From an uncultured Spirochaetia bacterium (GTDB taxonomy: Bacteria; Spirochaetota; Spirochaetia; SZUA-6; Bin103), in assembly GCA_958296075.1 (NCBI GenBank), contig CATQHW010000001.1:372001-436000 (forward strand): 64,000 nucleotides of DNA, written 5' to 3'. The notes below the pieces were generated by a model, which was not told the DNA's origin, did not search any database, and was given only the letters and a program-made list of their open reading frames with translations. The first letter of the stretch is position 1. Each line of letters opens with the position of its first letter. Below, in pieces: positions 42,294 through 63,184 of this stretch. The position numbers and the translations under genes are program-made.

Positions 42294-43073
42294 CTACGAG
42301 GACGGAAGCGGCCGCAGCAGGCCCTTCTCGATCAACGTGCGGAAGTGCATCACCGCCGTCTCCGCAAGGGTGCGATCCCGTACCAGCAAACCCAGTTCGA
42401 TGTTGCGGTCGAAGGCAGCCTCGGTGAGGTTCGCCGAGGTGATGAACGCCGATTCGTCGTCCGTCACCACGGCCTTGGCGTGGAGCACGGCGCCGGGGCC
42501 GGCGTCCGCCACCGAACGCGGATCGTAGAACACCCTGGGACGCGTTGCGCCCGGCCATGATTCACCCCAGAAGTGATCCGCGAAACGACGCACCAGGCTG
42601 TCGGCGGCGGTGGTGTCGCCGCGCCGGCGCTCGATGTTGAGCAGCAGCGTGACTTCGAGCCGCGGGATCGAGTCCATGCGCCGGGCCAGTGTCGCGAACG
42701 CGCGCGGCCCGTCGAAGAACGCGTAGCTGCACACCCAGATCGAATGTTGAGCGGAGCTGATCAGCTCCTCGTACACCCGGCGCGTATCGCGGGCGTGCAG
42801 GCCGACGACCTCCGGGCCGGTCCAGACGAAGTCCGGCGCCGGCGCTCGTTCCGCCGCGCGCGCCAAGCTGCGCAGCCAGATGACGCCCGCCTCCGGCGAG
42901 ACGCCGATGCGCTCCCACTCCCGGAGCACTCCCAGGAGCGCGGCCTGGTGGTCGCCGCCCACCGTCGAGCGGATGGCAAGCGCCGAGTACGGCGGGGCGA
43001 GCAGGCCGGACTCCAGCGCGATCGACAACCGGCTGCGCACGTGCGCGGGCAGCGCGAGCAGTGCGTCGATCAC
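42294..43073 (-). CDS. drmC: DISARM-like phospholipase D protein DrmC
   Basis: The 259-aa protein has one phospholipase D HKD motif, HAKAVVTDDESAFITSANLT (H-x-K-x4-D then the SxN element) near residue 220, preceded by a GLHARDTRRVYEELISSAQH segment typical of DrmC-like proteins. PLD proteins of this kind form the third core member of DISARM. It lies 49 bases after the DUF1998 gene and ends the operon. Single-HKD proteins dimerise to cleave phosphodiesters; DrmC has been reported as dispensable in at least some tests. Confidence 0.8.
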   Translation of the reverse strand: MIDALLALPAHVRSRLSIALESGLLAPPYSALAIRSTVGGDHQAALLGVLREWERIGVSPEAGVIWLRSLARAAERAPAPDFVWTGPEVVGLHARDTRRVYEELISSAQHSIWVCSYAFFDGPRAFATLARRMDSIPRLEVTLLLNIERRRGDTTAADSLVRRFADHFWGESWPGATRPRVFYDPRSVADAGPGAVLHAKAVVTDDESAFITSANLTEAAFDRNIELGLLVRDRTLAETAVMHFRTLIEKGLLRPLPSS

Positions 43074-43122
43074 GGCGCGGCGGCGCCGGTCCGGTACGGC
43101 GGCGCCGGTGGCGGAGCGGCGA

Positions 43123-44925
43123 TCACGGCGTGCCGAAGAAGGCGGCTTCTGCGGCGCCCAGCGCCGGGGCTACCAGCGCCCGGTCCAGGTACTCGTTGCG
43201 CATCTCGCAGGAGGTCTCCGCGATCAGCGCGCAGCCGTGGCACGCCGCCCCGTGCAGCCAGCGTTCCTCCATGCTGCGCCCCGGTACGTGCTCGGCGCAG
43301 ACCGGATCGTTGGAACACAGCGTCGCTGACTCCAGCGCGTACTGCAGGTGGTCTTCCACGCGGCGCGCTTCCTGCACCAGACCGCCCAGCGTGCCTTCGG
43401 CGTCCGGGCTCGCGGTGTACAGCAGCAGGGCGTAGCGCTTGCCGGCATCGTCCGCGTAGATGCGTTCCCGGATCGAGGCCGCGGGGTAGCCGCAGCGCAT
43501 GGAGAGGGACTGGATGAGCAGGTGCGCCAGCGTGTGCAGCAGCACGTAGGGTCCGCCCGGGAAGTGTCGCTCGCTGTTGCGGTGCCGCGCCCAGGCGAGG
43601 TGACCGTCGAGCAGTTGGCTCAGCCGTTCCTGCACCGGCTGCCGGCCGAGCCAGTCCGTCACCGCGCCGGCGCTGAGTTGGACCACGATGCCCTCCCCGC
43701 GGTTCTCCACCGCCGGGAACCAGCGCGGTTCCAGCGCGATGTCGGCGCGTTCGACTTCGGCTTCGTACTCTCCGTCGATGTTGGGTATCACCGGTTCGAG
43801 CCGAGTGAAGCCGGCCAGCGCCAACACTTCCCGGAGCCGGTGCACCTGGATGACGCCCTCGATCCCGTCGCAGCGCGACGACCGGCGCCGCCACACGGAC
43901 TCCGGCAGGCGGCGGGCATGGAAGTCGGGATCGACCGGCACGTCGTCGCCGAACCCCTCGGCGGCCGCGAGGAGAGCGTCCAGCTCGGCGTGCTTGATCG
44001 GGCGGTCGCCGGCGTCGCCGCCGGAACGCCGGGCAGCGATCGCGCCCAGCACTTCGGCGTCCGAGAACGCCGCCAAGCGATCCGCCACGCCGGGGTATTG
44101 CTTCACGAAGCCGAGCTGCGCCGCATCCGCGACGATCTGAAGCTGTTGCCAGAGCTCTTCCACCGCCCGATCGACCTCGGTACCGCGATCCGGCAGGGAC
44201 AGCACGCTGAGCACCTGCGGAAACCAGGCGTTCGACGCAGTGCGGATCAACAGGCGGCTCGGCTGGTCGCATCGCTCGTTCGCGTGGCGGCCCAGCCAGG
44301 GCCGGGCGCCGCTACACGTGCCCAGCGCGAAGTTGGCCACGTCGGCAGCCTCGTGCATGCGGCGCCACTTGCCGCACTCGCAGCGCACGATCTGCTCGGC
44401 CAGGTCGCCGCTGGTGCCGCGCTCGTCGAGCCGGAGCTGCCGGCGGCAGGGGTCGTCCGGACCGTGGACGAAGCGAAACCAGTCGATGTCGTCGACGTGC
44501 CCTCTGGAGCAGGCGCGCACGAACCGGGTGGCCACGACGGGCTTCCTGTCGAACTTGCCGCGGTCGAGCGCGGTGCGGCGCACCATGCGGCGGGAACGCG
44601 AGCTCGATCGTCCCCCGGAGCCGGGGCCGAACTCCTGTACGATGAACCACTCGGGAAACCGCCACGCGCCGATGCCGCGTTGCCGATCCTGCGGATGATC
44701 CGGCTCCGGCGGCGGCGCGTACAGCCGCGGATCGGGAACTCCCGTCATGGAGGTCAGCTTGGCCGCAAGGCGCGGTTCGTCGATCTGTTCGAGACTCGAC
44801 TCGGCGCCCCAGGTGTCGAGCCCGCCCACGATCGCGGAGTCGTCCGGCAGGTCGATCAGCGCTCCCGGCCCGAACGTGGTGATCACCTGGCTGCAGCGCA
44901 ACTGGCCGTGCGCCTTACCGTTCAC
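43123..44925 (-). CDS. drmB: DISARM-like DUF1998 protein DrmB
   Basis: The 600-aa protein begins with the DrmB-like CSQVITTFGPGALIDLPDDS, followed by IGAWRFPEWFIVQEFGPG, a zinc-like cluster (FVRACSRGHVDDIDW, IVRCECGKWRRMHEAADV) and the C-terminal DUF1998 domain (VLLHTLAHLLIQSLSMRCGY, LLLYTASPDAEGTLGGLV, C-x2-C pair in GAACHGCALIAETSCEM). DrmB partners the DrmA helicase in sensing and degrading foreign DNA. Its first 11 bases overlap the DUF4276 gene, indicating co-translation. Confidence 0.88.
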   Translation of the reverse strand: MNGKAHGQLRCSQVITTFGPGALIDLPDDSAIVGGLDTWGAESSLEQIDEPRLAAKLTSMTGVPDPRLYAPPPEPDHPQDRQRGIGAWRFPEWFIVQEFGPGSGGRSSSRSRRMVRRTALDRGKFDRKPVVATRFVRACSRGHVDDIDWFRFVHGPDDPCRRQLRLDERGTSGDLAEQIVRCECGKWRRMHEAADVANFALGTCSGARPWLGRHANERCDQPSRLLIRTASNAWFPQVLSVLSLPDRGTEVDRAVEELWQQLQIVADAAQLGFVKQYPGVADRLAAFSDAEVLGAIAARRSGGDAGDRPIKHAELDALLAAAEGFGDDVPVDPDFHARRLPESVWRRRSSRCDGIEGVIQVHRLREVLALAGFTRLEPVIPNIDGEYEAEVERADIALEPRWFPAVENRGEGIVVQLSAGAVTDWLGRQPVQERLSQLLDGHLAWARHRNSERHFPGGPYVLLHTLAHLLIQSLSMRCGYPAASIRERIYADDAGKRYALLLYTASPDAEGTLGGLVQEARRVEDHLQYALESATLCSNDPVCAEHVPGRSMEERWLHGAACHGCALIAETSCEMRNEYLDRALVAPALGAAEAAFFGTP

Positions 44926-45502
44926 ACGCTTCCCTGTGATCGGTGCCGTTCGTCACGGCATCCACGAAGCCCTTGAAACTGGGACTGCGGCCCATGATGG
45001 TCGGCGGGCTCGCCTTGCGGGCAATCTCCGCGGAGACACGGGCGGTGTAGACTTGCGGAAGCAGGTTCTTCAAGTGGAGCTTGGGATTCTCGATTTCGTC
45101 CGGCTTCGAAGTATCCACGTGCCCCAGATTGCGCCCAAGATACTCTCGGAGATTCGTCGCGTCGGCGAAGTACCACGCTTCGAGATGCCATTGAGCGTAC
45201 TCATACCGCACCCGCATCTTGATCTCGTCCGGTAAACGTGTGGAAAGCCGGTGCTGCAGTGGATCCACGACTTGCGCCGGCGATTTCCCATCTACATCGA
45301 CCAGAAGGATGATCTTTTCCGGCTGATTATCGATATCTTCGTACCACACCGACTTGATGAGACTTTCCGCAACCTTGATGAGACTTCGGTTGTTCGGTGG
45401 AATGCGCACCTTGACCGTCGTGCCCTGCAGATGCGATACAAGATGCGGCAGCGAGAGCAGCTCGGTTCTGCCCGACGCGAGTACTACGACGTTACGAGCC
45501 AC
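44915..45502 (-). CDS. DUF4276 Toprim-like protein, partner of the adjacent ATPase
   Basis: The proposed start is GTG 45502, one base after the ATPase stop (TGA at 45504-45506), giving about 195 aa: VARNVVVLASGRTELLSLPH, KIILLVDVDGKSPAQVV (acidic Toprim strand), EYAQWHLEAWYFADATNLRE. A longer frame from 45583 exists but overlaps the ATPase and adds unrelated residues. DUF4276 resembles Toprim nucleases of OLD-like defence pairs. The usual Glu of the first strand (EGxTE) reads ASGRTE here, so the active site may be altered. Confidence 0.75.
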   Translation of the reverse strand: MARNVVVLASGRTELLSLPHLVSHLQGTTVKVRIPPNNRSLIKVAESLIKSVWYEDIDNQPEKIILLVDVDGKSPAQVVDPLQHRLSTRLPDEIKMRVRYEYAQWHLEAWYFADATNLREYLGRNLGHVDTSKPDEIENPKLHLKNLLPQVYTARVSAEIARKASPPTIMGRSPSFKGFVDAVTNGTDHREACER

Positions 45503-45503
45503 G

Positions 45504-46637
45504 TCAAGTCGCCCCGAAGCCCCTGGTCTGGTGGTACTCGCCGAGGCTGAATCCCGATTCATCCAGAGCCCTGCGAACGCCATCGGGATTCGTCTGCCGG
45601 CTCACGGCGGTTCCCTCCCCGTCGTTGCGCTGAACGACGCGCACTACCTTCGGATCATCCAACAGATCGAGCAGCAACGGGGAGTGGGTGGTCACCATGA
45701 ATTGCACTCGGTCTTGCGAGTCGCGCAGATACTCGACGAGGGCAGACAGCGCGCCCGGATGTATGTAATTCTCGGGCTCCTCAATGCCCAACAGGTTCGT
45801 TCCCGGATTACCGTGGAGCGCCGTCATCAGCGCCAGCACACGCAGCGTCCCGCTGGATATACCCATTTGATGCACGGCAAACTGCAGCCCCTCTTCACGC
45901 TGAACGAAGTAGAAGCGATCTTCGGACTCGCGCGTCTCGATCCTCTCAGGGAGGCCGACAATCGCCTGGGTCGCTGACCGGATACGCTCCATGATTTCGG
46001 GGGACGTATTTGCAAGCGCGTATAGCGTCTCACCCAGGTTGCGTCCGTAATGATCGAACCGGCTCGACTCCAATCCCGCCCAGTCGCGGCGGAGCAGAAA
46101 CGGATTTGGATCGAAGAATCCCCATCGGCGTACGAAGTCCGCAATTTCACGCGCGGGAAAGGTCGCATCCGCGGAGGCTGCCGCCAGAGCGCAAACGGTC
46201 GAAGGTTGCTTCATCTCGACTCGTTCGTTGGTGTTGGCCGACCACCACCAACCGGCGCCGCTATCGGCCTGCAGGAGTACCGACGGTGGGGACTGCGGCA
46301 GGAACCGCGCAACACGCTCCTTGATATGGAACTGATACCCCTGCCTGGTGATCTGAACCGACCATTCGATCGGCTCGTCACCGTCCTGCAGGGTCACCGC
46401 CAAGTCGATCTGATGAGCTTCCTCGCCCTTCCAGGCAAGATTGAGGATGCCGCCCCTTGAGGCCACCGGCGCCTCGAAGTCACGCGCATGCACTCCGTCG
46501 TGCAGAAAGCGCAGCGCGTCGAGTATCGTGCTCTTGCCCGAAGCGTTGGCGCCGATGAAGACGTTGAAGTCCTCCATCTCGATGTCCACGTCTCGCAGAC
46601 TGCGAAAGTTCTTCGCCTTGAGGTGCAATAGCTTCAC
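45504..46637 (-). CDS. OLD/AAA_21-type SMC-like ATPase
   Basis: The 377-aa protein has KLLHLKAKNFRSLRDVDIEM, Walker A FIGANASGKSTILDALRF, an ABC-like signature MGISSGTLRVLALMTAL, Walker B LLGIEEPENYIHPGALSALV and the His switch FMVTTHSPLLLDLL. It is a small ABC-like ATPase of the kind that drives Toprim or other nucleases in abortive infection systems. It overlaps the DrmA gene end by four bases and is followed by DUF4276, splitting drmA from drmB. Confidence 0.85.
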   Translation of the reverse strand: MKLLHLKAKNFRSLRDVDIEMEDFNVFIGANASGKSTILDALRFLHDGVHARDFEAPVASRGGILNLAWKGEEAHQIDLAVTLQDGDEPIEWSVQITRQGYQFHIKERVARFLPQSPPSVLLQADSGAGWWWSANTNERVEMKQPSTVCALAAASADATFPAREIADFVRRWGFFDPNPFLLRRDWAGLESSRFDHYGRNLGETLYALANTSPEIMERIRSATQAIVGLPERIETRESEDRFYFVQREEGLQFAVHQMGISSGTLRVLALMTALHGNPGTNLLGIEEPENYIHPGALSALVEYLRDSQDRVQFMVTTHSPLLLDLLDDPKVVRVVQRNDGEGTAVSRQTNPDGVRRALDESGFSLGEYHQTRGFGAT

Positions 46638-49600
46638 TGATTCAGACTCCTTCCGTCGAGTCGGCTGGACAGGTCTTGCAGGAACAGGTTCACCTGCGGC
46701 TCGACGTCGCGCAATGACCGGTTGGCGCGGAACTTCCGGTGGTGGGGCGACTCGAAGTCGGTATCCAGCATCTCGCGCAGGAGTGGCCTTCGGGTCGGGG
46801 CCTCGTACTTCTGATACTGCATTCCCACTCCGTCGGCGCGATAGTCGTCGAGGATCGCGCGCCAGGAGTCCAGCAGGTCGCCGACGCGGTTCTGAATGCT
46901 GCGCAGCCGTTCGTTGCGCTCGGCCTCGTCCTGCAGGGGCTGTTCATTGATTCGGGCGCGAAACACCTCGAGCAACAGTCGCTCCAGGGCCACGCGCTCC
47001 GCCGCGATGGCTTCCACCCCGGCCGGCGGGGTCAGCGCCGGCAGAGCGTGGCGGGCGAGCGCCACCAGCGCCCCCGCGAAGCCGCGGTCCAGGGCGCGGG
47101 CGGCGAAAGGGGTGACGCTGGCGACCTCGACCGAGCGGTAGAACGTCTCATGGTAGTGCCGGAAGCGCTCGTAGTGCGACCGGTCGCGCGGCCGGTGCAC
47201 GTTGTAGAGGGTCACTACCAGTCCGGGGCGACGATCGTCGCGACCGACCCGGCTGGTGGCCTGAATGTACTCCGAATTGGTCTTCGGTTGGCCGTAGACC
47301 AGCATCAGACCGAGCCGCTGGATGTCCAGGCCGACCGAGATCATGTTGGTCGCGATAGCGCAGTCCACCCGCTGCCTGCGGTCGTGGAAGGTCGTTTGCA
47401 GCCGCCGCCGCGCTTCGGCCACGCGGTCGGTACTCACCCGCGAGGTCAGCTCGACCACGTCCGAGAAGCTCGCGCGGTCGCGAAACAGTCCCTGCGGCTC
47501 GCCGAGCCGCCTGCGGTCGCCGTAGCGCTTCAGCGTGTTCTGCACCTCCTCTTCCAGGATGCGCCGGGCGCCGCCGAGTTCGCGCAGGCTGTTGAAGTAG
47601 CCGAGCACGGTCATGTAGGGATCGGCCGGATTGTCCCGGTTGCGGGGACCACCGGCGTCGCGCCACGCGCGTTCGGCGGCGCCCATGAGCGTGAGCAACA
47701 CGCGCCGCATCGCCTCCTTCGGGTTGCGCCCCTGCGAGGCGATGCCGACGTACTGGCGCGCGTGGCGCTGCGCCGCGGGCATGGTGCGGGCGAAGAACGA
47801 GTCGCCGCGCGCCGGTCCCGGCGGTGGGAATATCTGCGTGATCGGCCGCCCGAACAGCCCCTGGATCTGCTGCCGCGCGTGACGCACCGTCGCCGTGGAG
47901 GCGACGATCTTCGGTTTCAACCGGCGGCCGTCGATCGCCCGCGCGCACAGCGCTTCGATCGCCGCCTCGTAGAGGCCGGCCATGGTCCCGAGCGGCCCGG
48001 AGATCAGGTGCAGTTCGTCCTGGATGACGAGGTCCGGCGGCGGCAGCGGGCGCGTCAGGCGGCGGCCGCGGCGGGGTTCGGCGGCGCCGTAGAAGCCGGT
48101 GCCGTCATGGCGGTCCGCGCCGCCGAGAAGCGCCCCGGACTCACCCACCCACGGAAGTGAGGCGAACTTGTCCGCGGTGGCGATCAGGAACGCGGGCAGG
48201 CGCCGGTACAGCGGCTCGTCCACGGCGACGATCGGCAACGGCGTGCCGCCCGAGAAGTCGCACTCCCAATCGGCGCAGGCGATGCGCAGCTCGGTCGGAT
48301 GGTCGGAATCGGGCAGCAGCGTGAAGGAGTCGGGGGTGAACTCTTCCCCGCACCACGGGCAGCGCTCCAACGGTATGGGAGCCGGTTTGCCCTCGGGGTT
48401 GTTCTTGTACTGACTGACCTTGCTGCGCGCCGAGTCGGAGCGGTTGTCGCCGCGTTCGCCGAGTCGGTTGGGCGTGCCGGCCTTGCCCACCCACAGGCCG
48501 ATCTCGAACGGCCACGCGCCGTACCGGCCGGCGTCCGTGCGCCGCTCCAGCTCCAGCGCGCACACCAGACCGGCGGCGCGCCCGAGCTGATCGAGGGTCA
48601 GCAACCGCAGTGTGTAGCGCATGATGACGCTCACGCCGGCCGCGGCCCGGCCGCCGTCTTCCGGATGGCGCAGCCGCCGCAGCACCATGGTGAACGCGGC
48701 GAGCCCGAGATACGCCTCGGTCTTGCCGCCGCCGGTGGGGAAGAAGAGCAGGTCCACGAACTCGCGTTCCGGGTGGGCGGGGTCCGCGAGTCCTGAGACG
48801 TTCAGCAGCAGGAAGGCGAGCTGAAAGGCGCGCCAGCGCGGCGGTTCGGCAACCCGTTCGCGAGTCAGGCGCCGCGCCAGCGCCGCGGCCACGGCGCGGT
48901 TGGCCACGCGGAAGGCGTCGAGCGCATCCGCGTCCGCCGCGAGCACGCGGATGCCGCGCTCGATGCGGTCGGCGGCGGAGCCGGCGAGGAACAGCAGCTT
49001 CTCGGCGGTTTCGCGGCGCGCACCCGTCAGGCCCGTAAACGCGGCGCGCTGCTGATCGATCCAGCCGCGATACCCGGTCACCAGCGGCATCAACGCGCGT
49101 TCCACGGCGGCGGCGCCGGCAAGGTCGCCAAGCACCGCCATGGCGAGCTCCACGCCCGGCACCTCGACCGTTTCCGTCTTCTCCACTTCGGCCGCCGGAA
49201 TCCAGGTGGTGCGGAGCACCCGGCAGGCACCGCCGGTCAGTTCCCAATCGGCGGCCACCCCGTGGCCGGCCGCGTATTCGGGCGTGCCGGCGTAATGCAG
49301 GTCCGCCACGCCTTCGTCCTGGCGCTCGTCCTGATCGTCGCCGGAGACGCCGCGCGGGTCGGGACGCGGCACGAACGGCACCGCGGCGCGCACCTCCAAC
49401 TCGGCCTGAAAGGCGAACGCTTCGTCGCGACCGCGGTCACCGGCCGCGGGCCGGTCATTCACCAGGAACAGCGACACGGAGCGCGTCCCCGGCGGAATCC
49501 GGTCCGCAAAGGTCTCCGCGTGCACCGGGCGGGCGGCCGCGTGGAGGATCAGCCCACCCGAGCCCGGCACCGGGCTCTGACACGGACGGCCGGCCGCCGG

Positions 49601-50179
49601 CAGAACCACGCGGACCGCTTCCTCACCGGGCGTACGTTGCCACCACGTCGATGCGCTACTCTCGCCCGCCGTGGCAGCCTCGCCGGCGCTCTCCGCGTCG
49701 GGCAACTCCCCGCGGTCGGAGGCGCCGGCCGAGCCCCCTCCGTCCGAGGCGTCTTCTCCGACGTAGCGGTAGTCGCCCCAGCGGACGGTCACGTGCAACT
49801 CTTCGACGCCTGCGGCGACCAGGAAGCTCAGGCCCATCGACGACGGAAAGAAGCTTCGCTTTGCGGCCCGGTGATCCTCGGTGGAGTCGTCGCCGAGCCC
49901 CGACTCTCCCGCGACCTCCGGCTCGAAGTCGTCGTCCGCATCGGCGTCCGCGCGCTGTTCGGCCGGCGCCCCGCGCGGGACCAGAAACCCGCTGAGATAC
50001 CAACTGGAGGGCCGCACCCACCCTGGCAGCCGCTCGTCTGCCAGCGCATGTTCTGCCCGCGGACCGATCAGATCGAGCGCCAGCGCCTCCCGCAGTCGGG
50101 CGCGCGCCCCGGCGGAACGCGTCATCGAATCGGCCTCACGCCGCCCCTGAATCCGTACAGATGATAGGCGTTCGTCCAA
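46634..50179 (-). CDS. drmA: DISARM-like superfamily 2 helicase DrmA
   Basis: The 1181-aa protein has Walker A LLFFPTGGGKTEAYLGLA near residue 478, a DExH box LVIQDELHLISGPLGTMAGL near 720, and the helicase C domain with TNMISVGLDIQRLGLMLVYG and YIQATSRVGRDDRRPG near 950. A zinc-like CPWCGEEF lies between. These match DrmA of DISARM. The N-terminal 100 residues are acidic and variable; ATG 50125 (MTRSAGARARLREA) may be the true start. It overlaps the ATPase gene downstream and follows the NACHT gene by 74 bases. Confidence 0.87.
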   Translation of the reverse strand: MDERLSSVRIQGRREADSMTRSAGARARLREALALDLIGPRAEHALADERLPGWVRPSSWYLSGFLVPRGAPAEQRADADADDDFEPEVAGESGLGDDSTEDHRAAKRSFFPSSMGLSFLVAAGVEELHVTVRWGDYRYVGEDASDGGGSAGASDRGELPDAESAGEAATAGESSASTWWQRTPGEEAVRVVLPAAGRPCQSPVPGSGGLILHAAARPVHAETFADRIPPGTRSVSLFLVNDRPAAGDRGRDEAFAFQAELEVRAAVPFVPRPDPRGVSGDDQDERQDEGVADLHYAGTPEYAAGHGVAADWELTGGACRVLRTTWIPAAEVEKTETVEVPGVELAMAVLGDLAGAAAVERALMPLVTGYRGWIDQQRAAFTGLTGARRETAEKLLFLAGSAADRIERGIRVLAADADALDAFRVANRAVAAALARRLTRERVAEPPRWRAFQLAFLLLNVSGLADPAHPEREFVDLLFFPTGGGKTEAYLGLAAFTMVLRRLRHPEDGGRAAAGVSVIMRYTLRLLTLDQLGRAAGLVCALELERRTDAGRYGAWPFEIGLWVGKAGTPNRLGERGDNRSDSARSKVSQYKNNPEGKPAPIPLERCPWCGEEFTPDSFTLLPDSDHPTELRIACADWECDFSGGTPLPIVAVDEPLYRRLPAFLIATADKFASLPWVGESGALLGGADRHDGTGFYGAAEPRRGRRLTRPLPPPDLVIQDELHLISGPLGTMAGLYEAAIEALCARAIDGRRLKPKIVASTATVRHARQQIQGLFGRPITQIFPPPGPARGDSFFARTMPAAQRHARQYVGIASQGRNPKEAMRRVLLTLMGAAERAWRDAGGPRNRDNPADPYMTVLGYFNSLRELGGARRILEEEVQNTLKRYGDRRRLGEPQGLFRDRASFSDVVELTSRVSTDRVAEARRRLQTTFHDRRQRVDCAIATNMISVGLDIQRLGLMLVYGQPKTNSEYIQATSRVGRDDRRPGLVVTLYNVHRPRDRSHYERFRHYHETFYRSVEVASVTPFAARALDRGFAGALVALARHALPALTPPAGVEAIAAERVALERLLLEVFRARINEQPLQDEAERNERLRSIQNRVGDLLDSWRAILDDYRADGVGMQYQKYEAPTRRPLLREMLDTDFESPHHRKFRANRSLRDVEPQVNLFLQDLSSRLDGRSLNQ

Positions 50180-50253
50180 CGTCCATTGTGAAAGAGCATC
50201 TCGGCGTCTTTCCAGTGGCGTGCATCGGTCAAGTCGGCTGGATGTGTTCTCAT

Positions 50254-52743
50254 TCAGATAGAATGGATGGCGCAGTCCGGAAGCGCCGCCTGTAGTTTGT
50301 TGATCTCATGTTCCAACACTGGTGTATCAGACAAGAATATCGATTCAAGTCCGGTTAGCTGAGCGATGGGTGTCAAGTCGGACACCTTAGTCCGGTGTAT
50401 TTGAAGCTCCCGAAGCGAAGTGATGTGAGCGAGCGGTGAAAGGTCGGTTACCTGTGTCCCGTCCAGTGAAAGACGCCGAAGCGAAGTGATGCCAGCGAGC
50501 GGTGAAAGGTCGGTTACCTGTGTCCCGTCCAGCCAAAGATCCTGAAGCGAAGTGATGCCAGCGAGCGGTGAGAGGTCGGTTACCTGTGTCCCGGCCAGCC
50601 AAAGAACTCGAAGCGAAGTGATGTGAGCGAGCGGTGAGAGATCGGTTACCTGTGTCCCGTCCAGTGAAAGAACTTCAAGCGAAGTGATGCCAGCGAGCGG
50701 TGAGAGATCGGTTACCTGTGTCCCGGCCAGTAAAAGAACCTCAAGCGAAGTGATGCCAGCGAGCGGTGAGAGGTCGGTTACCTGTGTCCCTTCCAGTGAA
50801 AGATTCTGAAGCGAAGTGATGCCAGCGAGCGGCGAGAGATCGGTTACCTGTGTCCCGGCCAGTGAAAGAACCTGAAGCGAAGTGATGCCAGCGAGCGGTG
50901 AGAGGTCGGTTACCTGTGTCCCTTCCAGCCAAAGAACCTGAAGCGAAGTGATGCCAGCGAGCGGTGAGAGGTCGGACACCTGAAGGTCTATCAGACTTAG
51001 TTTCCGAATCCGATTCTTGTCATCTTGACGACCAATATCCGTAACAACGTCATGTGGCCTTAAGCGAGAACGCCGATTGAGTACGATTCGAGACAACAGG
51101 ATGTTGAGACGTACGGGTGAATCCTCATAGTCACACAGATGCGCAAAATTCTTTCCGAACACACAATCGCGAAGATCGTCGTACCAGTCATCTTCGGACA
51201 CGAGCAGTTCGAAGAGGAACACGAATGTCTCGAGCCACGTGCTCTTGTTCGCCCAGTTGGTCAAGGACTCGAGGTCGAATAGTCGAGATTTTCTATCTCT
51301 CACCCAAGCGGGGGTAGTGACTTCGCGCTTCATTGCATGTGCGGCGAAGTACTCCTGGAAGGACAGATGGATGAAGGCGTAGCGATCCTCGCCGCGCGGC
51401 AGGAGCAGACCGCTGCGACGCTTGACGAACTGGAGAAATCCCTCCGCAGTCTCCGCTTCCAAGGCGGAGTGACGTTCCATTTCATCCTGCACCCAGCGAA
51501 CAACGTCATCGCCATCGACGAGAATCTCTGAGCTGTCGGTGTTCTCCTGTGCGTCCCGGCGGCATTGCATTTCATATCCGACCCGGGCGAGCCAGCGCTT
51601 CTTGAAGGGCAGGTCGGCGGCACCGGAGTAGATGCCGCGGAATTTGTCGATCGATTCAAGGTACGCCTCGGCGATGCGATCATAGAGCAGCGCCCGCTCC
51701 TGTGGCAGCGTAGCCTCGATTCGATGAATCAACGCCATCATGGTCAGCAGATGCGGGACCCGCGCCAGCCGGAGAATCGCCTCGTCCGCATGAACCGCTT
51801 CGACAAGGCGGGCGGCGTCTTCGCCCGCGCGCACCGCCGCTGCCTCCCGCATCTCGTACCATCTGCGGGCAAACGCCCTGATGCGCCGATCATCGAACGG
51901 TGCGAGGTAGCGTGTAACGACCAAGTCAGGTCGGAAACCCTCGGCCCGCTGATTGAGCAGAGAATCGACTGGCCGATCGGTTCCACGGCCATTACGGGCT
52001 CCGTCACTGTCGCCGTATCCTTTGTGGTCCGGCACGCCGCGGCGGGTGTCCCCGTCGTAACGGCCGAATGGCATCTCTTCGTAGCCGATGATCCTTGATG
52101 TCAATAGCCAACGACAACCTGGGTAGCGACCGATTCCGTCGAACACGGCCCGCTGAAGTTGCTGGCGTATCCCCAGATCGGCGATCTCGTCGATACCGTC
52201 GAGCAGAATGAAACCCCGCCCGTCTGCCAGGGTTTTGGTCAGCAACGTGCCGTCGCGCAGCGGCTCACTCATGGCGTGCGCCAGAAACGCTTGCAGCAAC
52301 CCATCGAAATCCGTCACGTCCTCAAGACGAAGTTCTCTGAGGACCATGGGAACCGGCAGATGCCAACCGATACGCTCCACCAAGCGGTTCTCTGCGGGAC
52401 GCGATAGTAGCCAGACCAGATAATTGACAAGCGATGATTTCCCCGCTCCGGGATCGCCCAGAAGCACGATCGGCTTGTCGACGGTGATCGCCTGCAGCAG
52501 ACGTTCCGCATCCTCGGTCCACTCCGCTGGATCTTCATCGGGAGAAACGTAGCGGCGCGCAACGAGCGGCTCGACGAACAGGCGGTCGACGATGACGTCG
52601 GGATGGTCGCGGCGGTCCGGCAACCCGAGAAAGCGAATGTATCCATGCCAATCCCGCACGTTGGAGAGATAGGATCGAAGCGCCCGGTTGGCGAACAGGT
52701 CGGTCATCGTCAAAGGGGTGCCGGGGTTGGCCAAGCTCTTCAC
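50254..52743 (-). CDS. NACHT NTPase with C-terminal leucine-rich repeats
   Basis: The 829-aa protein carries a STAND/NACHT module: Walker A PIVLLGDPGAGKSSLVNYL near residue 93, Walker B GFILLDGIDEIADLG near 181, and CRWLLTSRIIGYEEM (sensor). A helical middle (FIHLSFQEYFAAHAMKRE) is typical of NACHT NTPases. About ten 22-residue leucine-rich repeats follow, residues about 585-800, e.g. TQVTDLSPLAGITSLQVLSL. NACHT-LRR proteins act as pathogen sensors in eukaryotes, and bacterial NACHT proteins defend against phage. The gene starts in a 4-bp overlap with the KAP gene. No effector domain is obvious at the N-terminus. Confidence 0.85.
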   Translation of the reverse strand: MKSLANPGTPLTMTDLFANRALRSYLSNVRDWHGYIRFLGLPDRRDHPDVIVDRLFVEPLVARRYVSPDEDPAEWTEDAERLLQAITVDKPIVLLGDPGAGKSSLVNYLVWLLSRPAENRLVERIGWHLPVPMVLRELRLEDVTDFDGLLQAFLAHAMSEPLRDGTLLTKTLADGRGFILLDGIDEIADLGIRQQLQRAVFDGIGRYPGCRWLLTSRIIGYEEMPFGRYDGDTRRGVPDHKGYGDSDGARNGRGTDRPVDSLLNQRAEGFRPDLVVTRYLAPFDDRRIRAFARRWYEMREAAAVRAGEDAARLVEAVHADEAILRLARVPHLLTMMALIHRIEATLPQERALLYDRIAEAYLESIDKFRGIYSGAADLPFKKRWLARVGYEMQCRRDAQENTDSSEILVDGDDVVRWVQDEMERHSALEAETAEGFLQFVKRRSGLLLPRGEDRYAFIHLSFQEYFAAHAMKREVTTPAWVRDRKSRLFDLESLTNWANKSTWLETFVFLFELLVSEDDWYDDLRDCVFGKNFAHLCDYEDSPVRLNILLSRIVLNRRSRLRPHDVVTDIGRQDDKNRIRKLSLIDLQVSDLSPLAGITSLQVLWLEGTQVTDLSPLAGITSLQVLSLAGTQVTDLSPLAGITSLQNLSLEGTQVTDLSPLAGITSLEVLLLAGTQVTDLSPLAGITSLEVLSLDGTQVTDLSPLAHITSLRVLWLAGTQVTDLSPLAGITSLQDLWLDGTQVTDLSPLAGITSLRRLSLDGTQVTDLSPLAHITSLRELQIHRTKVSDLTPIAQLTGLESIFLSDTPVLEHEINKLQAALPDCAIHSI
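50335..50985 (-). repeat. Tandem 66-bp repeats encoding the LRR region
   Basis: Ten units with a 66-bp period, eight or nine of them nearly identical at the DNA level (e.g. GCGAAGTGATGCCAGCGAGC). The variable positions cluster in one short window that encodes the residues after ITSL (QVLWLEG, RRLSLDG, QDLWLDG, RELQIHR). This points to recent tandem expansion with diversification of the exposed face. Confidence 0.85.
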
Positions 52744-54155
52744 GTTTGATCTCGTCCGAGATAATGGTGGAATTGGTCCGGGCTCACTTCTACGCCGAGG
52801 TGCTGGATCAAGGACTGGATACAGAATACGCGAGCATCCGCAGGGTCGGGATAGGTGCTTTCCATGCTACTCTGCTCTGTTTGTCCGTCCCTACCCGTAT
52901 CAGCTTCCTTCGGGCGAATCAGAGACTTCAGGAACGAAAGAGTAGTCTGTCCTCCGTTACACCAGTCATATATCTTCGTATAGAGATCGACATCGACTTC
53001 CCATCTCACGTAGAGATCGTGATGAAACTGGTAAATGTATGCAACGATCATGAGAAGCTGTGTTTCCCGGATCGCAGCCTGTTCTCTCTCTTCCTCCGGC
53101 AGTGTCGTAGATACCTTCGGAAGCCGTACCCATAACCTCCCGATCAGATTTGCAAGACCTTTGAGACGCCGGGGGTTGGGTGGTAGACAGTGATGATCCT
53201 TTACCCCACGATGATCCTCTACCCCACGTATGATCCGGCGGCAGGCGGCTTCGTCAGCTACCGTTTTCTTCAGGAGTTTCGCGAGGAACAGATGGGGCTG
53301 CCGAACCGTAGGCAGCCGCCACACATTCTGGCACAGCTTCTCCAGGTAGGCGGCGGCACGAACCTTGCGGGTCTCATCGTCCTGTATCTGTATCTGAATG
53401 CCGATCGCCTCCTCTATCACCTTCTGGTTCATTCCCAGGACGAACACGCAATTTTCCAGAGTCAGATATATCTTGAGACCTTCCAGCAGGCGATAGGCAG
53501 CGGTGGACTCGCAGCGATCGATATCGTCGATGAAGATGACAAGACGACGCAACGGATTACGCTTAGGCTGCAGCAATAGCTGATCGATGGCTTCGCGCAG
53601 GTGCTGGCGCATGGTATGCGACGGCAGAGGAGTCGCAAGATTCTCGGCCTTCCACTCGCGATTGGCTTGCTGGATCTTGGAGTATTGGAAGCCTATCTTC
53701 TTCGTTAGGTCCTCAAGGGAAAGCAGGGCACCTCGGGCGGCCACCTTGGCGGCGTTGGGAATCCGCCGCAGGGTTGACAACTGCGCGCGCATCTCCTGCA
53801 GCAGCGCGACGACGGGCACGTCTTCGTATTGATAGCGCCAAGCGTCGAACCAGATCGCGCGGATCGTCTTTTCGTGCCTCCCCTTGGCTAGGTCACGCGA
53901 TGACGCTTCCTTCGTCGCGTCGTCGGACTGCTGTGGGCAGGCGCCCATCAGGTACCACTGCACCTGATGCAGGAAGCTCGTCTTCCCCAACCCCCAGTCG
54001 CCATGAACGCCAAACACCTGCGGCGGCGTACAGGTGGCGACCGCTTCTCCGACTTCCCGAATCAGCGCTCCCCGCTCAAGGTCATCCTGTAGCGTCGGTT
54101 CGTCGTTGTGCATCGCTCGGCCTCCTGCTATCCACCCGTCATTGCCGGTTTCCAT
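52740..54155 (-). CDS. KAP-family P-loop NTPase
   Basis: The 471-aa protein has Walker A GVHGDWGLGKTSFLHQVQWY near residue 50, WFDAWRYQYEDVP, and Walker B LVIFIDDIDRCESTAAYRLL near 205, all typical of KAP NTPases. KAP proteins usually carry membrane helices inserted in the P-loop domain; none is evident here. The start may be ATG 54113 (MHNDEPTLQDDLERGAL). It overlaps the NACHT gene by four bases, so the two NTPases are probably made together. Confidence 0.82.
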   Translation of the reverse strand: METGNDGWIAGGRAMHNDEPTLQDDLERGALIREVGEAVATCTPPQVFGVHGDWGLGKTSFLHQVQWYLMGACPQQSDDATKEASSRDLAKGRHEKTIRAIWFDAWRYQYEDVPVVALLQEMRAQLSTLRRIPNAAKVAARGALLSLEDLTKKIGFQYSKIQQANREWKAENLATPLPSHTMRQHLREAIDQLLLQPKRNPLRRLVIFIDDIDRCESTAAYRLLEGLKIYLTLENCVFVLGMNQKVIEEAIGIQIQIQDDETRKVRAAAYLEKLCQNVWRLPTVRQPHLFLAKLLKKTVADEAACRRIIRGVEDHRGVKDHHCLPPNPRRLKGLANLIGRLWVRLPKVSTTLPEEEREQAAIRETQLLMIVAYIYQFHHDLYVRWEVDVDLYTKIYDWCNGGQTTLSFLKSLIRPKEADTGRDGQTEQSSMESTYPDPADARVFCIQSLIQHLGVEVSPDQFHHYLGRDQT

Positions 54156-54345: not shown

Positions 54346-54600
54346 ATGGAGTTCAGCGAGGAGGTCATCAGGCGCCGGTTTGCGGTTGGGCACGGACGGC
54401 CGCTGGGAGTTCAAGCAGATCGAGTTCCGCGGCAACCGCCCGGTCGGTCCCAATCGGGACAGTCTCGCCGACGAACTGGCGGCCTTCGCCAACGGGAACG
54501 GCGGGGTGTTGCTCTGCGGCGTGACCGACGACGGCCGCGTTCAGGGGATGACCCGCGCTCAGTTGGACGCGGTGGAGCAGCTCGTCATCACCTGCACGGA
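54346..54600 (+). pseudogene. AlbA_2 DNA-binding domain fragment, frameshifted and truncated
   Basis: MEFSEEVIRR from ATG 54346 is followed, after a one-base shift near 54378, by RLGTDGRWEFKQIEFRGN, LADELAAFANGNGGVLLCG and VTDDGRVQGMTRAQLDAVEQ, the AlbA_2 (Schlafen-like) core. Similarity stops at about 54600 (LVITCTD), exactly where the oppositely oriented protease fragment also ends. The ATP-binding half is absent. Confidence 0.75.
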
Positions 54601-54910
54601 TGTCGTCGAGCTGGTACTCGCGCAACCACTCCAATCCGGGGATCTGGTAGACGGCTCGGACGAAGTTCTGAATGGAACCGATGGTCTCGATCACCAAGAC
54701 CTGTTCTGGCAGAAGACCGAGCGGGTTGTCCCGTAGCGCCAAGCGTCGTTCTTCCAGCGCTTCCTGGAGACGCTGAAACTGCGGCACGAGCCGTTGCGCT
54801 TGCCTCGTGTGACCTGGACTCTTGATTCTTCCAGAGCCGCCATTTCTCCGTGCGCGGTCGGCCGCAACTGGCTCAGGAAAGACGAGAAGCGGGAAGTCGG
54901 TATCGGCCAT
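54600..54910 (-). pseudogene. Truncated subtilisin-like protease (IetS-type), N-terminal prodomain only
   Basis: MADTDFPLLVFPEPVAADRA, GGSGRIKSPGHTRQAQRLVP, NPLGLLPEQVLVIETIGSIQ and GLEWLREYQLDDI match the N-terminal region of the S8 proteases that pair with AAA ATPases (IetAS). After about 103 residues the match ends at the junction with the AlbA_2 fragment. The catalytic Asp, His and Ser are all lost. The start is two bases after the ATPase stop, the normal operon arrangement. Confidence 0.75.
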
Positions 54911-54912
54911 TG

Positions 54913-55920
54913 TTATGAATTCGCCCGGTCTTCGTCTGCGCTTTCACTGGGTCGCTTGGGCGTATACCGCTTCTTCCATTGGCGCAGCCGACGCCCGACG
55001 ATGGCTTTGATGTCAGCGTCCGGTTGTTCGATGGCGATCCGGCGCAGCACATCCGTTCCGAAGTCTTCGACCTCGGCGAAGCTCAATCCACGCAGCCGCT
55101 GGGCAAGGCTCCGCGGCGACAGGCCGAGCGGCTGTCCATGCCGCTTCTCGAAACGTCTGAACCACTCCTCGATCTGGCCCTGAGTCGGGGCCGGCAACTC
55201 CAGCCGAATCTGGAAGCGGCGCCACACGGCGCGGTCGAGCAACTCCGGATGATTGCTTGCCGCAACCGCTACGACGTAACTGGGAAGAGCGTCGATTTGA
55301 AGTAATAGCGAACTCACGACGCGCTTTATTTCACCGGTCTCGTGCAGGTCGCCGCGCTCCTTTCCCACCGAATCGAACTCGTCGAAGAACAACACGCAGG
55401 CCCGCGATCGGGCGTGTTCGAAGACCTGGCCGATCCGCTGCGCCGTCTCGCCCAGATAGCTGCCGATGACGGCCTCATACCGGACGACGAGCAGCGGAAC
55501 GTTCAAGGTGTACGCCAACGCCTCCGCGAGCGTGGTCTTGCCGTTTCCCGGAGGACCGGCGAGCAGCACCCGGTTGCGGGGCTCCAGGCTGTACGACCGA
55601 AGCAGATCGGCGCGGTGCTGCTCGGCCACCAACTCACGCATGGTCTCCTCCGCCTCCGCAGGCAGCATCAAGTCTCCCAGGCAACGAGCGGGTATTGTCT
55701 CGGTTACCAGAGGTCCTGGCGCCGAACGGCTGCGGAGGGGGGCCGTCTGCCCGCGCCGGCCGTTATCGGATTGAAGCTGCGCCAACAACCGGTCCGCCAG
55801 GATAGTGTGATTCTTCGCCCGTTCCTCGGCGGCGAGCGCTTCGACCGCCTTCCGTAGTTGCAGGTCGTCGCCCTGCCGGCTGGCCTTGATCAGTGTCAGG
55901 ATCAGGTCGGCGCGTGCCAT
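54913..55920 (-). CDS. ietA: AAA+ ATPase, IetA-like
   Basis: The 335-aa protein has an N-terminal helical part, Walker A VLLAGPPGNGKTTLAEALAY near residue 119, Walker B ACVLFFDEFDSVGKERGD near 175, and the sensor region VVAVAASNHPELLDRAVWRR. It is the ATPase half of the IetAS defence pair (ATPase plus subtilisin-like protease). The gene looks intact, but its protease partner is truncated, so the pair is presumably inactive unless another protease is used. Confidence 0.8.
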   Translation of the reverse strand: MARADLILTLIKASRQGDDLQLRKAVEALAAEERAKNHTILADRLLAQLQSDNGRRGQTAPLRSRSAPGPLVTETIPARCLGDLMLPAEAEETMRELVAEQHRADLLRSYSLEPRNRVLLAGPPGNGKTTLAEALAYTLNVPLLVVRYEAVIGSYLGETAQRIGQVFEHARSRACVLFFDEFDSVGKERGDLHETGEIKRVVSSLLLQIDALPSYVVAVAASNHPELLDRAVWRRFQIRLELPAPTQGQIEEWFRRFEKRHGQPLGLSPRSLAQRLRGLSFAEVEDFGTDVLRRIAIEQPDADIKAIVGRRLRQWKKRYTPKRPSESADEDRANS

Positions 55921-55974
55921 GATCGTTCAGCTCCGCAGTCTATGGGCGGGAACGCAGCGCCGCAAGCCAGCCGG

Positions 55975-56197: not shown

Positions 56198-56199
56198 CC

Positions 56200-57488: not shown

Positions 57489-59765
57489 TCAGGTCGGAGT
57501 CACCGCCTTGAACCGGTTCAGGACGTAACTCGGGATCTGACTTGCCGTCAGTTCCGTCGTCGCTGGACCGGTACGGACGTAGAACCGTTCAGCTTCGCCG
57601 TCCTTGACGTAGACCGGGGCCGGCGACTTCAGACAACGCGCTCTCAGTACCCGATGACCGTCGTAGTCCTCGAACCGAACGTGCATCGACGTCATCGCCA
57701 TCGCGCCGAGCCGCGTCTTGACGATGTTCACCAGATGCAGGCTCATCTTATCTTCGTTGGGAAATTTGTCCGCAGCGATTCCGACCGGCGTCCCGTCGTC
57801 GGAGACCCCTACGATCAGCGTCCCGCCGTCGGTGTTGAGGAAGCCCGCCACCGTCTTCAACACGGCCTGCTCCATGCGCTTGTCCACTGCCCCGGTGTGC
57901 AGATTGATCCGCAGCGTCGACTTGAACTCCACGCCTTCGGATTCACCCTGTTCGAGCAGCGCAGGCAGGTCCAACCCGGCGCTCCCCGTCTCCTTCTCCG
58001 GTTTCGGCTGCAATCCGTCCAGCAACTCGCAGTAGCCCTGGTGAACGATCCGCGCGATCAGCTCCCGGCGCGTCTCCAGAAAGGCGCGGTACTCCATCCG
58101 CTCCCAGTCCTCCGGCAGCGCGTGAAAGTGGTACATTCGCGCCACGTCGGCGGCACCGAACCGCTGCTTCAGCGGTGCAACGTATTCCGCCGGCGCCTGA
58201 TCGGAGACCCGCATGTTGTCGGTCCATTCCATGTAAGCGTAGTTGGCGATCTGGTTGGTGTCCCGCGTATCGGAGAAACCGAGCTTGTTCAGGTGGCCCC
58301 GGGGAAACAGGTGATGTCGCTCGATCATCGGTCGCGGCGCTCGGACTCCCGGATCCCACTGCTCCGCCACTTTGGCGGGCGAGAACAACACCGGCGCGTC
58401 CAGCAGCACCAGGGCCGCGTGGTAGGCGAACAGCGAAGGACTGCGCGGCGATGCCGTCGCCAGATCGTTCGGCAGCGTGACACGCCAGAAGTCGTTCGTC
58501 AGGGTAACTTCGCAGACCCGCCGGAGGCCGCTGACGAATTGGTCGGTAGCGGTCACGCCGCGGAGCCGCGCCAAGTCGAACTCCATTGCCGTCTCCGGGG
58601 AGCCGGTGAAGCGGCCGGTCACCGCCGACATGAAGTACCACTGCGCTATCGTCCGGCGCAGGGTCAACTCCTCCACCCCGTACTCGGTCCGGCCGATCAG
58701 ATACAACATGTACGAGAACAACAGATTGTTGTTCGAGCTGACCATCTTCCCGCTGCGGAAGCCGGCCATGCGGATGCAGTTCAGGAAGTCGTGCCAGTAC
58801 TGAATGTTCAGCGTGCGGGCCTGCGCCTTCTTCAGAACCTCGAACTGTGAGATCCGCTGATCATCGCTGAACTGACCGGTCTCCAGGTCCTTGCCGCGCA
58901 GGATCGAGTACACGTATCGCAGGCGGGCGCGTTTGAAGCCCACGCCCACACTCACGCGCAGCAGTTGATCGGGAGCCGGTTCGATGAAGTAATTGAAGGG
59001 CGACGCGACGGCTTGCGTGGGCTTCCGGGCAGCTCGACAGAAGCGCTCCAGTTCCGCGCGTCCCTCATCCCAGAACACCGACATCAACGTCAGGATGAAG
59101 TCCGCCTGATTCAGCGGCGTACCGCGGCTGTTGATACGGACGAAGACGTCGGACACGTCCTCGACTTCGACGTCCGCCGCCAACTCCAGCGCGGTGAACG
59201 GAAAGGTCATCAGCGAGCGCAGCTTCTCGATCGCGGTCCGAATCTGCTTCGTCTCCTCGCTGCTGACGTCGCGCGCGGATTTCAAGCCGCTCAGGTGCTC
59301 ATCGGCAATCTCGAAGATGTCCGCCCGGTCGCTCCAGACGCTGGATATGTCCGGGATGAACGCCTTGTCGCGCCGGGTAGCGGCGTCCGCGACCTCGAAC
59401 CGCTCCTCCAGCGGGTTGAAGGCGATGCTAATCCGTTCGCTCTCGTAGTTGGCCCGAACTACGGGTACTCCCCTGATGACCGCATACAGAGAAGTGAGCC
59501 GCTGCTGGCCGTCTACGATGACCAACTTGGGGGGCTTCTGCTTGGTCTCGACACCAATGGTCCGATCGTCCGCCTGCCCGTTCTGCCAGAGCAGCAGATA
59601 GCCGACCGGATAGCCGCGGTACATCGAGTCGAACAGGTCGCGAACCTTGACGTTGTTCCAGACGAACGGCCGCTGAATGTCGGGCAGGCCGATATCGCCC
59701 AACTCGATGTACTTGATCAGCCCGTTCAAGTCATAATCAACTTTCGTAAATACGGTGTCGCTCAC
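57489..59765 (-). CDS. DUF262 (GmrS-like) protein fused to an AlbA_2 domain
   Basis: The 758-aa protein starts with the DUF262 core: YIELGDIGLPDIQRPFVWNN, RGYPVGYLLLWQNG and KLVIVDGQQRLTSLYAVIRG (DGQQR nucleotide-binding motif). An HNH-like RHHLFPRGHLNKLGF lies near residue 480. Residues about 610-750 form an AlbA_2 domain: ESEGVEFKSTLRINLHTG, TVAGFLNTDGGTLIVGVSDD. DUF262 proteins such as GmrSD and SspE cut modified phage DNA; AlbA_2 usually binds nucleic acid. GTG start with GAGGAG upstream. It stands alone. Confidence 0.85.
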   Translation of the reverse strand: MSDTVFTKVDYDLNGLIKYIELGDIGLPDIQRPFVWNNVKVRDLFDSMYRGYPVGYLLLWQNGQADDRTIGVETKQKPPKLVIVDGQQRLTSLYAVIRGVPVVRANYESERISIAFNPLEERFEVADAATRRDKAFIPDISSVWSDRADIFEIADEHLSGLKSARDVSSEETKQIRTAIEKLRSLMTFPFTALELAADVEVEDVSDVFVRINSRGTPLNQADFILTLMSVFWDEGRAELERFCRAARKPTQAVASPFNYFIEPAPDQLLRVSVGVGFKRARLRYVYSILRGKDLETGQFSDDQRISQFEVLKKAQARTLNIQYWHDFLNCIRMAGFRSGKMVSSNNNLLFSYMLYLIGRTEYGVEELTLRRTIAQWYFMSAVTGRFTGSPETAMEFDLARLRGVTATDQFVSGLRRVCEVTLTNDFWRVTLPNDLATASPRSPSLFAYHAALVLLDAPVLFSPAKVAEQWDPGVRAPRPMIERHHLFPRGHLNKLGFSDTRDTNQIANYAYMEWTDNMRVSDQAPAEYVAPLKQRFGAADVARMYHFHALPEDWERMEYRAFLETRRELIARIVHQGYCELLDGLQPKPEKETGSAGLDLPALLEQGESEGVEFKSTLRINLHTGAVDKRMEQAVLKTVAGFLNTDGGTLIVGVSDDGTPVGIAADKFPNEDKMSLHLVNIVKTRLGAMAMTSMHVRFEDYDGHRVLRARCLKSPAPVYVKDGEAERFYVRTGPATTELTASQIPSYVLNRFKAVTPT

Positions 59766-62323: not shown

Positions 62324-63184
62324 CTATCGTCGGACCCACGGAGTTGCTTTCAGGAAATCGACGAGCTCCTTACACAGCGACGACTCCTCGAACGCGGTAC
62401 TCGACAGACCGTCGCGGCCGATGACGTGGGTCAGACCGTCTCCCGGTGCGCGAAACTGGCCGGCGGCGGTAATCACCGCCTTCAATTGAGAGGCGCAGCT
62501 ACGGGACACCCTGTCAGAGTCATTCCTGTTATCATGGATGAAGTCGTGCGCCTTGGCGTATCGATCGGGCCACTCTGCTCTCGTCATCGGCGCCAGATGG
62601 TCTTCGAGTGTGCCAGTCTCGTCATCGGTCCCCTTATGAAAGACGAAACAACCGACGGACGAAGTATCGGTCTTGACCCACTTGCCGTGATCGACCGCGG
62701 AGAGATCGCCAAAGTGAGGTCCGTATCGCTCGCGGAATTCATTGACGGTCGCAGTCACCCCGATGGCGTCGGCGTCGAACAGGAAGGCCGCTGCATACTC
62801 TGACACGTCATACCAGTCGATCGGCTCGCCCTCGCAGTCGAAGATCTCGTGCAAGTCCTTGAGCAGCTCCTGAACGGCATTCACCTGATCTTTCCCATGA
62901 GTACGAATCAGCACGAACATCGTGTTCGAATCGGCGTCTTCGACGACCGCCTCGAAACTTGGGAGCGACGGATGTGCAGCACCCTTAAGGGTAAGGTCTT
63001 CGAAAGCCCGTCGCTCGAGTCTCCTGGCAATCAGCCCTTTAGGTACGGTCCGGCTTTCACCGAATGGCGACGGGAGCTCCCCGATGGGCTTCGAGACCCA
63101 ACTACATTTCGCCACAGCTCCCAGACTGCGCGTGGTGAATGCTACATCATGGGAGCCTTCGCAGAAGACCAGTACTGACCTCAA
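62324..63184 (-). CDS. Toprim-like protein, partner of the adjacent ATPase
   Basis: The 286-aa protein starts with SVLVFCEGSHDVAFTTRSL, the Glu strand of a Toprim fold, and has AAAFLFDADAIGVTATVNEF with the acidic pair. The layout resembles DUF3226/DUF4435 nucleases encoded after OLD-like ATPases. Its start overlaps the ATPase end by four bases. It likely forms an ATPase-nuclease defence pair similar in concept to PARIS or OLD class systems; the exact type is undetermined. Confidence 0.7.
   Translation of the reverse strand: MRSVLVFCEGSHDVAFTTRSLGAVAKCSWVSKPIGELPSPFGESRTVPKGLIARRLERRAFEDLTLKGAAHPSLPSFEAVVEDADSNTMFVLIRTHGKDQVNAVQELLKDLHEIFDCEGEPIDWYDVSEYAAAFLFDADAIGVTATVNEFRERYGPHFGDLSAVDHGKWVKTDTSSVGCFVFHKGTDDETGTLEDHLAPMTRAEWPDRYAKAHDFIHDNRNDSDRVSRSCASQLKAVITAAGQFRAPGDGLTHVIGRDGLSSTAFEESSLCKELVDFLKATPWVRR

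Follow-up and report, generated by a model that had tools for sequence, protein, structure and literature searches.

An ABC ATPase–DUF4276 gene pair inserted between drmA and drmB of a class 1 DISARM locus

In the stretch of DNA analysed herein, 64,000 nucleotides from an uncultured Spirochaetia bacterium (hereafter the window), the genes for the DISARM helicase DrmA and its partner DrmB are separated by an ABC ATPase gene and a DUF4276 gene. The locus raises the question of whether a second defence module has joined the DISARM operon, as proposed in a preliminary description of the sequence, and whether such a module would take part in DISARM function or work on its own.

Gene content of the DISARM locus

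As summarized in Table 1, drmA, the ABC ATPase gene, the DUF4276 gene, drmB and drmC follow one another on the minus strand, and this order and the gene identities, both claimed in the preliminary description, were borne out by PADLOC, Pfam and NCBIfam models. DrmA was recognised by PADLOC (E = 7e-273) and by the NCBIfam equivalog DISARM_DrmAS (1141 bits against a cut-off of 950), and has intact Walker A (FFPTGGGKTE) and DELH motifs; its frame is open from TTG 50179, and ATG 50125 (MTRSAG...) is the likelier start, in agreement with its relatives. DrmC, the gene of which adjoins drmB, matched DISARM_DrmC_I of NCBIfam (173.5 bits against a cut-off of 133) and carries the PLD motif HAKAVVTD. The ATPase matched AAA_21 (2e-32), had HEC-01A (PDLC04178, 2e-55) as its top PADLOC model, and contains a Walker A motif (GANASGKS), a signature motif (SSGT) and EEPE; its nearest solved relatives in a PDB profile search were OLD, PtuA, GajA and AriA. 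The DUF4276 protein was recognised by Pfam (38.2 bits against a cut-off of 30.2) and by the PADLOC model HEC-01B (3e-8), and GTG 45502 is a likelier start for it than ATG 45583, which leaves a spacing of 1 bp after the ATPase gene. The overlaps that had been claimed on either side of the pair, 4 bp (GTGA) between drmA and the ATPase gene and 11 bp between the DUF4276 gene and drmB, are exact in the sequence.

Table 1. Features of the DISARM locus in window coordinates or, with the prefix C1, in genome coordinates
Feature	Coordinates	Strand	Basis or position
drmC, PLD-family, DISARM class 1 type	42294..43073	minus	PADLOC, Pfam, NCBIfam
drmB (MZB/DUF1998, DrmA partner)	43123..44925	minus	NCBIfam, 541 bits vs cut-off 240
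DUF4276 protein, HEC-01B-like, probable nuclease partner, 195 aa	44915..45502	minus	Pfam, PADLOC
Inserted segment with ATPase and DUF4276 genes, 1,712 bp	44926..46637	minus	joint reconstruction
ABC ATPase, OLD/AriA/HEC-01A kind, 377 aa	45504..46637	minus	AAA_21, PADLOC HEC-01A
drmA, DISARM helicase	46634..50125	minus	PADLOC, NCBIfam
NACHT-LRR (NLR-like) protein, 829 aa, upstream of drmA	50254..52743	minus	Pfam
KAP NTPase (PDC-S20-like), overlaps NACHT-LRR gene by 4 bp	52740..54155	minus	PADLOC, Pfam
IetS N-terminal fragment, protease (subtilase) part absent	54368..54910	minus	PADLOC
Second IetA (AAA) gene	54913..55920	minus	PADLOC, Pfam
GmrSD_N + Schlafen AlbA_2 protein (HEC-05-like N-terminus)	57489..59765	minus	PADLOC, Pfam
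PDC-M38B, partner of PDC-M38A	62324..63184	minus	cargo model match
PDC-M38A, cut by window end	63181..64000 (C1:435181-437361)	minus	cargo
TIR/ThsB-like	C1:437566-438165	minus	beyond window
PDC-M50A	C1:438054-438776	minus	beyond window
IetS	C1:438968-441307	minus	beyond window
IetA	C1:441318-442319	minus	beyond window
drmMI adenine methylase	C1:442298 to about 446410 (window-equivalent about 70.3-74.4 kb)	minus	NCBIfam/PADLOC models
PIN-domain gene	C1:446427-446903	minus	beyond window
NsnB-like ABC ATPase (with DUF3696)	C1:446903-448231	minus	beyond window
drmD SNF2 helicase	C1:448242-451565 (window-equivalent about 76.2-79.6 kb)	minus	NCBIfam/PADLOC models

The locus had initially been described as a DISARM-like core of drmA, drmB and drmC; the genes hold, but not the notion of a core alone, as drmMI and drmD are found past the window end, 20 kb and 26 kb upstream of drmA on the same strand. 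These two genes rule out a stripped-down DISARM without a methylase, and by its gene content the locus is a complete class 1 DISARM (drmD, drmMI, drmA, drmB, drmC) in canonical order over 37.3 kb. All five genes are on one strand in the usual order and are recognised by curated or PADLOC models, as in other class 1 systems; unlike those, the locus extends across 37 kb: drmMI and drmA stand about 20 kb apart, and a module of two genes parts drmA from drmB.

This DISARM carries at least eight modules, whole or partial. The array lies almost entirely on the minus strand, often with tight spacing, and includes a PNPOx gene among the cargo of the drmMI-drmA interval. A eukaryotic-type carbonic anhydrase gene (56200-57009, Pfam 3e-44) sits on the plus strand inside it, so that the array is not necessarily transcribed as one unit; a minus-strand ORF at 55927-57213 (428 aa) was rejected as a gene, its place being occupied by the carbonic anhydrase gene. 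The IetS fragment, whose match to its family is confined to the first ~120 residues, adjoins a full-length IetA gene, and a complete IetAS pair is found ~12-15 kb upstream of it in the same array. The NsnB-like ATPase and PIN genes (window-equivalent 74427-76231) form a second pair of the ATPase plus nuclease type, between drmD and drmMI. Furthermore, a short minus-strand ORF (MRTHPADLTDARHWKDAEMLFHNGRWTNAYHLYGF...) begins at 50253, just past the NACHT-LRR stop codon, and breaks off at about 50126, before drmA. It shares 71% identity over 24 aa with a Tistrella plasmid protein encoded beside an AAA ATPase gene, looks like the beginning of a small HEPN-like protein, and may have been left behind when an earlier cargo was deleted.

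The drmA-drmB joint and the inserted segment

The pentamer GTGAA was found at both borders of the inserted segment (46637-46633 and 44925-44921), and the insert sits precisely where drmA and drmB ancestrally overlapped in GTGA: when its 1,712 bp are taken out, the overlap of the relatives is restored. The rebuilt empty site, GAATCA-GTGA-ACGGTAAGGCG, has the same form as that of the relative L029, GGCGC-GTGA-ACGGGAGGGCG. In particular, the joined drmA end and drmB start (...GAATCA-GTGA-ACGGTAAGGCGCACGG) give a DrmA ending in LNQ before the stop codon and a DrmB beginning with VNGKAHGQ, and the joint in L029, which is among the nearest uninterrupted relatives, reads GGCGC-GTGA-ACGGGAGGGCGCACGG. 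No codon of drmA or drmB was destroyed, and the C-terminus of DrmA and the N-terminus of DrmB are the same as in relatives. As the insertion was made precisely at the 4-bp overlap, both genes remained intact and translational coupling would be kept through the four genes.

The pair also differs in composition from its host, its GC3 being 0.70-0.74 (0.63-0.83 for the pair and all cargo) against 0.85-0.93 in the five drm genes, which agrees with a separate origin. Counts of internal promoters and terminators were not above those in shuffled sequences, a scan made with the sigma-70 consensus only and thus uninformative.

To place this arrangement, other DISARM loci were compared, namely 80 DrmA-related loci from one scan of genome contigs, 13 plasmid loci and spirochaete genomes. 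In agreement with the claim that drmA and drmB are normally adjacent, another gene separated them in 0/92 other loci possessing both, a sample that is not dereplicated and leans to the DrmA branch of the window, and the widest gap was 288 bp. Gaps exceeding 450 bp were observed in the main set at 3/41 drmD-drmMI, 32/58 drmMI-drmA, 0/83 drmA-drmB and 1/63 drmB-drmC joints, the single drmB-drmC case being a frame-shifted drmB, and 60 of the 83 loci have an exact 4-bp drmA/drmB overlap (NTGA). The drmA-drmB joint is thus the most constrained one in DISARM, consistent with the published interlock of the DrmA C-terminus and the DrmB N-terminus (PMC9142583). The contiguity that the window locus lacks is a trait of arrangement and no defining function of class 1 DISARM. 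The closest relatives whose loci are intact, G412 (66% identical in DrmA) and L029, L030 and L047 (74-75%), all have contiguous drmA and drmB. In a genome of the same family (G398, L181 12642-16276), drmA breaks off near residue 707, its frame continuing directly into a class II tRNA-synthetase-like ORF.

The same insertion, for which a survey of other loci had been proposed, occurred in none of the 80 genome loci, the 13 plasmid loci or the spirochaete genomes, and no DUF4276 was detected in those other DISARM loci that were searched with a profile. A literature search likewise returned no report of an insertion between drmA and drmB, and no paper mentioning DUF4276. Class 1 DISARM, HEC-01 and the embedding of defence genes in defence systems are already known.

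By comparison, the drmMI-drmA slot is an insertion hot spot filled with foreign modules, and DISARM can therefore be said to host foreign defence genes often, with the drmA-drmB joint as the host site seen once so far. PARIS-like pairs (an ABC ATPase and a weak DUF4435 match) occupy the slot in L018, L073 and L095, which are cyanobacterial loci, two of them on plasmids; HEC-01A ATPases were found there in L030 and L094, an AbiL-like ATPase with RloB in L092, an NsnB-like ATPase in L034, GmrSD in L081, L090 and L105, and Macro domains in L058 and L096, together with an IrrE peptidase and histidine-kinase ATPases, among other cargo types. In the closest DISARM relatives, L029 (4503-9059) and L030 (3096-7657), the slot holds HEF_HK histidine kinase and Response_reg_2 genes, a combination that resembles Detocs. 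Filled with known and unknown defence genes, the slot is a defined place to seek new systems and guards of DISARM.

The pair as an independent module

A search with PF14103 in 296 genomes of the phylum yielded 32 matches in 22 genomes. Of the 30 matches examined apart from that of the window, one is at a contig end and the other 29, hence 29/29 testable genes, are immediately preceded by a same-strand ABC ATPase ORF, with a spacing of -28 to +95 bp, mostly within tens of bases; the same holds for 5/5 DUF4276 relatives on viral contigs. These counts identify the pair as an obligate module. The source genome itself (~4.05 Mb, 5 contigs) carries four such pairs besides that of the window, at least one of which (C3:265063-266976) has genes of the opposite strand on either side. 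Judged from its models and gene neighbourhoods, the pair is a self-contained defence module, HEC-01 of PADLOC, and no part of DISARM. According to the preliminary description, an occurrence of the pair at this locus only, together with independent promoters and no effect on DISARM function, would refute its proposal; as regards the first of these, the pair at the drmA-drmB joint was indeed found only here as far as DISARM loci were sampled, and HEC-01 occurs alone elsewhere in this genome and in others.

In a tree whose deep part is poorly resolved, the HEC-01A ATPases of DISARM loci do not cluster together, and this scatter is the pattern expected from independent acquisitions; a DISARM-specific HEC-01 lineage was rejected on this basis. 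The window ATPase forms a long isolated branch with 27% identity or less to the others compared, and may thus have diverged in function. The viral contigs searched held nothing closely related to DrmA or the ATPase, and the plasmids searched nothing close to the DUF4276 protein; ATPase matches in plasmids were at most about 29% identical.

In the DUF4276 protein, the DVD (DxD) and LEAW motifs conserved in the family are present, and the acidic residue of motif 1 is replaced by Ser (ASGRTE), most relatives having (V/L)E(G/E/D) or D; this acid is a conserved residue of DUF4276 and no published criterion of HEC-01 membership. Considering that the equivalent substitution E26A inactivates AriB (PMC12409363), nuclease activity of this protein is doubtful. 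Its AlphaFold model (pLDDT 68, moderate) shows alternating strands and helices. When a Toprim fold was sought in it, in keeping with the Toprim-like label of the preliminary description, Foldseek with this model gave no PDB match below E = 0.001, a PDB profile search gave no significant match (best E = 0.01), and hhalign aligned the protein with AriB in register, but weakly and below significance.

Both proteins match the models of HEC-01, an Hma-embedded candidate, in the same two-gene order, whereas the embedding in DISARM, the low identity of the ATPase and the missing motif-1 acid set this pair apart. An OLD-like ATPase with a small partner in two genes also resembles PARIS (AriA and the Toprim nuclease AriB, DUF4435), in which AriA, on sensing a phage protein, sets AriB free (PMC12707154, PMC12409363); the partner here is however DUF4276, and the PARIS-like pairs of DISARM lie between drmMI and drmA. 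As described in two papers (PMC12988326, PMC12255303), the guilt-by-embedding approach (Payne et al., 2024, preprint, doi 10.1101/2024.01.29.577857) concerns defence genes embedded in other systems, and the PDC families and some HECs, at least, stem from it. Several cargo genes match the PADLOC families HEC-01, HEC-05, PDC-M38, PDC-M50 and PDC-S20, but the case is extreme, with so many modules in one DISARM and one of them in an otherwise invariant joint. The locus illustrates the nesting of defence systems one inside another.

Possible roles of the inserted pair

We consider it probable that independent defence modules were inserted into a complete class 1 DISARM, the one between drmA and drmB being a self-sufficient, horizontally acquired HEC-01 pair. 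By analogy with OLD and PARIS, the pair would most likely be an autonomous back-up defence co-expressed with DISARM, the co-expression being suggested by the overlaps. Placed exactly at the start/stop overlap, the OLD/AriA-like ATPase may serve as sensor and scaffold and keep the small DUF4276 protein inactive until a phage trigger frees or activates it, upon which it would cleave nucleic acid; such ATPase-gated release or activation is likely from the resemblance to PARIS, and the pair would then defend the cell alongside DISARM or as a second line, probably in an abortive manner and independently of it. The identity of the module, its occurrence alone elsewhere, the precise insertion, the difference in composition and the uniqueness of the site among the sampled loci are seen in the data; the horizontal origin, the co-expression, the nuclease activity, the trigger and the independence from DISARM are inferred. 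The recurrence of ABC-ATPase modules between drmMI and drmA in other DISARM loci argues for this explanation, and the single known instance of the arrangement, the lost motif-1 acid, the absence of a significant Toprim match for the DUF4276 protein and the isolated branch of the ATPase argue against it. The proposal that a second module had joined the operon thus stands in so far as an independent HEC-01 lies in the DISARM cluster with overlaps on both sides and a rebuilt empty site, but a part in DISARM function is disfavoured by the lack of any second such locus among those sampled. Inserted without codon loss, the pair offers a natural experiment for telling whether the two defences are simply carried together or cooperate.

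One form of cooperation would be surveillance: the pair might monitor DISARM, so that when a phage anti-restriction protein blocks DrmAB, or a DNA mimic appears, the ATPase frees DUF4276 and the cell is shut down, and the slot between drmA and drmB might tie the synthesis and stoichiometry of the pair to the DrmAB heterodimer. We regard both the monitoring and this coupling as unlikely. The idea is attractive in that this DISARM holds two modules of ATPase and partner (the pair, and the NsnB-like ATPase with PIN) and other DISARM loci several, entered repeatedly and independently. Precedents are known in PARIS, which senses Ocr, and in prrC, which lies within the ecoprrI locus and is switched on once EcoPrrI is inhibited by Stp (PMC12707154). 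Like PrrC, the pair would be a second-line module inside a restriction-type operon, although PrrC is a single protein of another family with a proven link to the type I system EcoPrrI, whereas the link of the pair to DISARM is conjecture. If true, DISARM would be a platform onto which ABC-ATPase/nuclease guards (PARIS-like, HEC-01, AbiL-like, NsnB-PIN) are recruited time and again against phage counter-defence. However, the same module also occurs alone elsewhere in the source genome, the HEC-01 ATPases of DISARM form no conserved clade of their own, the drmA-drmB site is unique among the sampled loci, and GmrSD, Macro, IrrE peptidase and histidine-kinase ATPases fill DISARM slots with no evident guard role.

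A non-functional hitchhiker, left as a remnant with an altered DUF4276 motif after insertions had disrupted DISARM expression, appears rather improbable. Decay would account for the motif-1 Ser, for the IetS fragment and the apparent HEPN-like gene stump by drmA among the cargo, for the 20 kb that separate drmMI from drmA and include a carbonic anhydrase gene on the other strand, and for the truncated drmA in the genome of the same family. On the other hand, the five drm genes, the ATPase gene and the DUF4276 gene have all kept open frames, the catalytic motifs that were checked are all there in DrmA, DrmD, DrmMI, DrmC and the ATPase, and the overlaps and every codon of drmA and drmB were retained.

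That the pair has become a true DISARM part, for example with a DrmAB-binding, ATP-driven or nuclease function replacing the dispensable DrmC, is very unlikely: the overlaps at both ends, the position at a joint where co-translational assembly would matter (the C-terminal arm of DrmA wraps the DrmB N-terminus; PMC9142583) and a motif-1 change that could mean a new role would fit it, but no second DISARM is so arranged, none of the others searched by profile contains DUF4276, drmC is present with its PLD motif, and the DrmA and DrmB termini are as in relatives. The comparison favours the view that DISARM tends in general to take up such modules, usually at the drmMI-drmA joint, over that of a fixed new subunit.

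Elsewhere in the source genome (G000:C2:46159-52375), distant drmMI-like and drmD-like genes form a second locus, which is DISARM-, BREX- or ARMADA-like.
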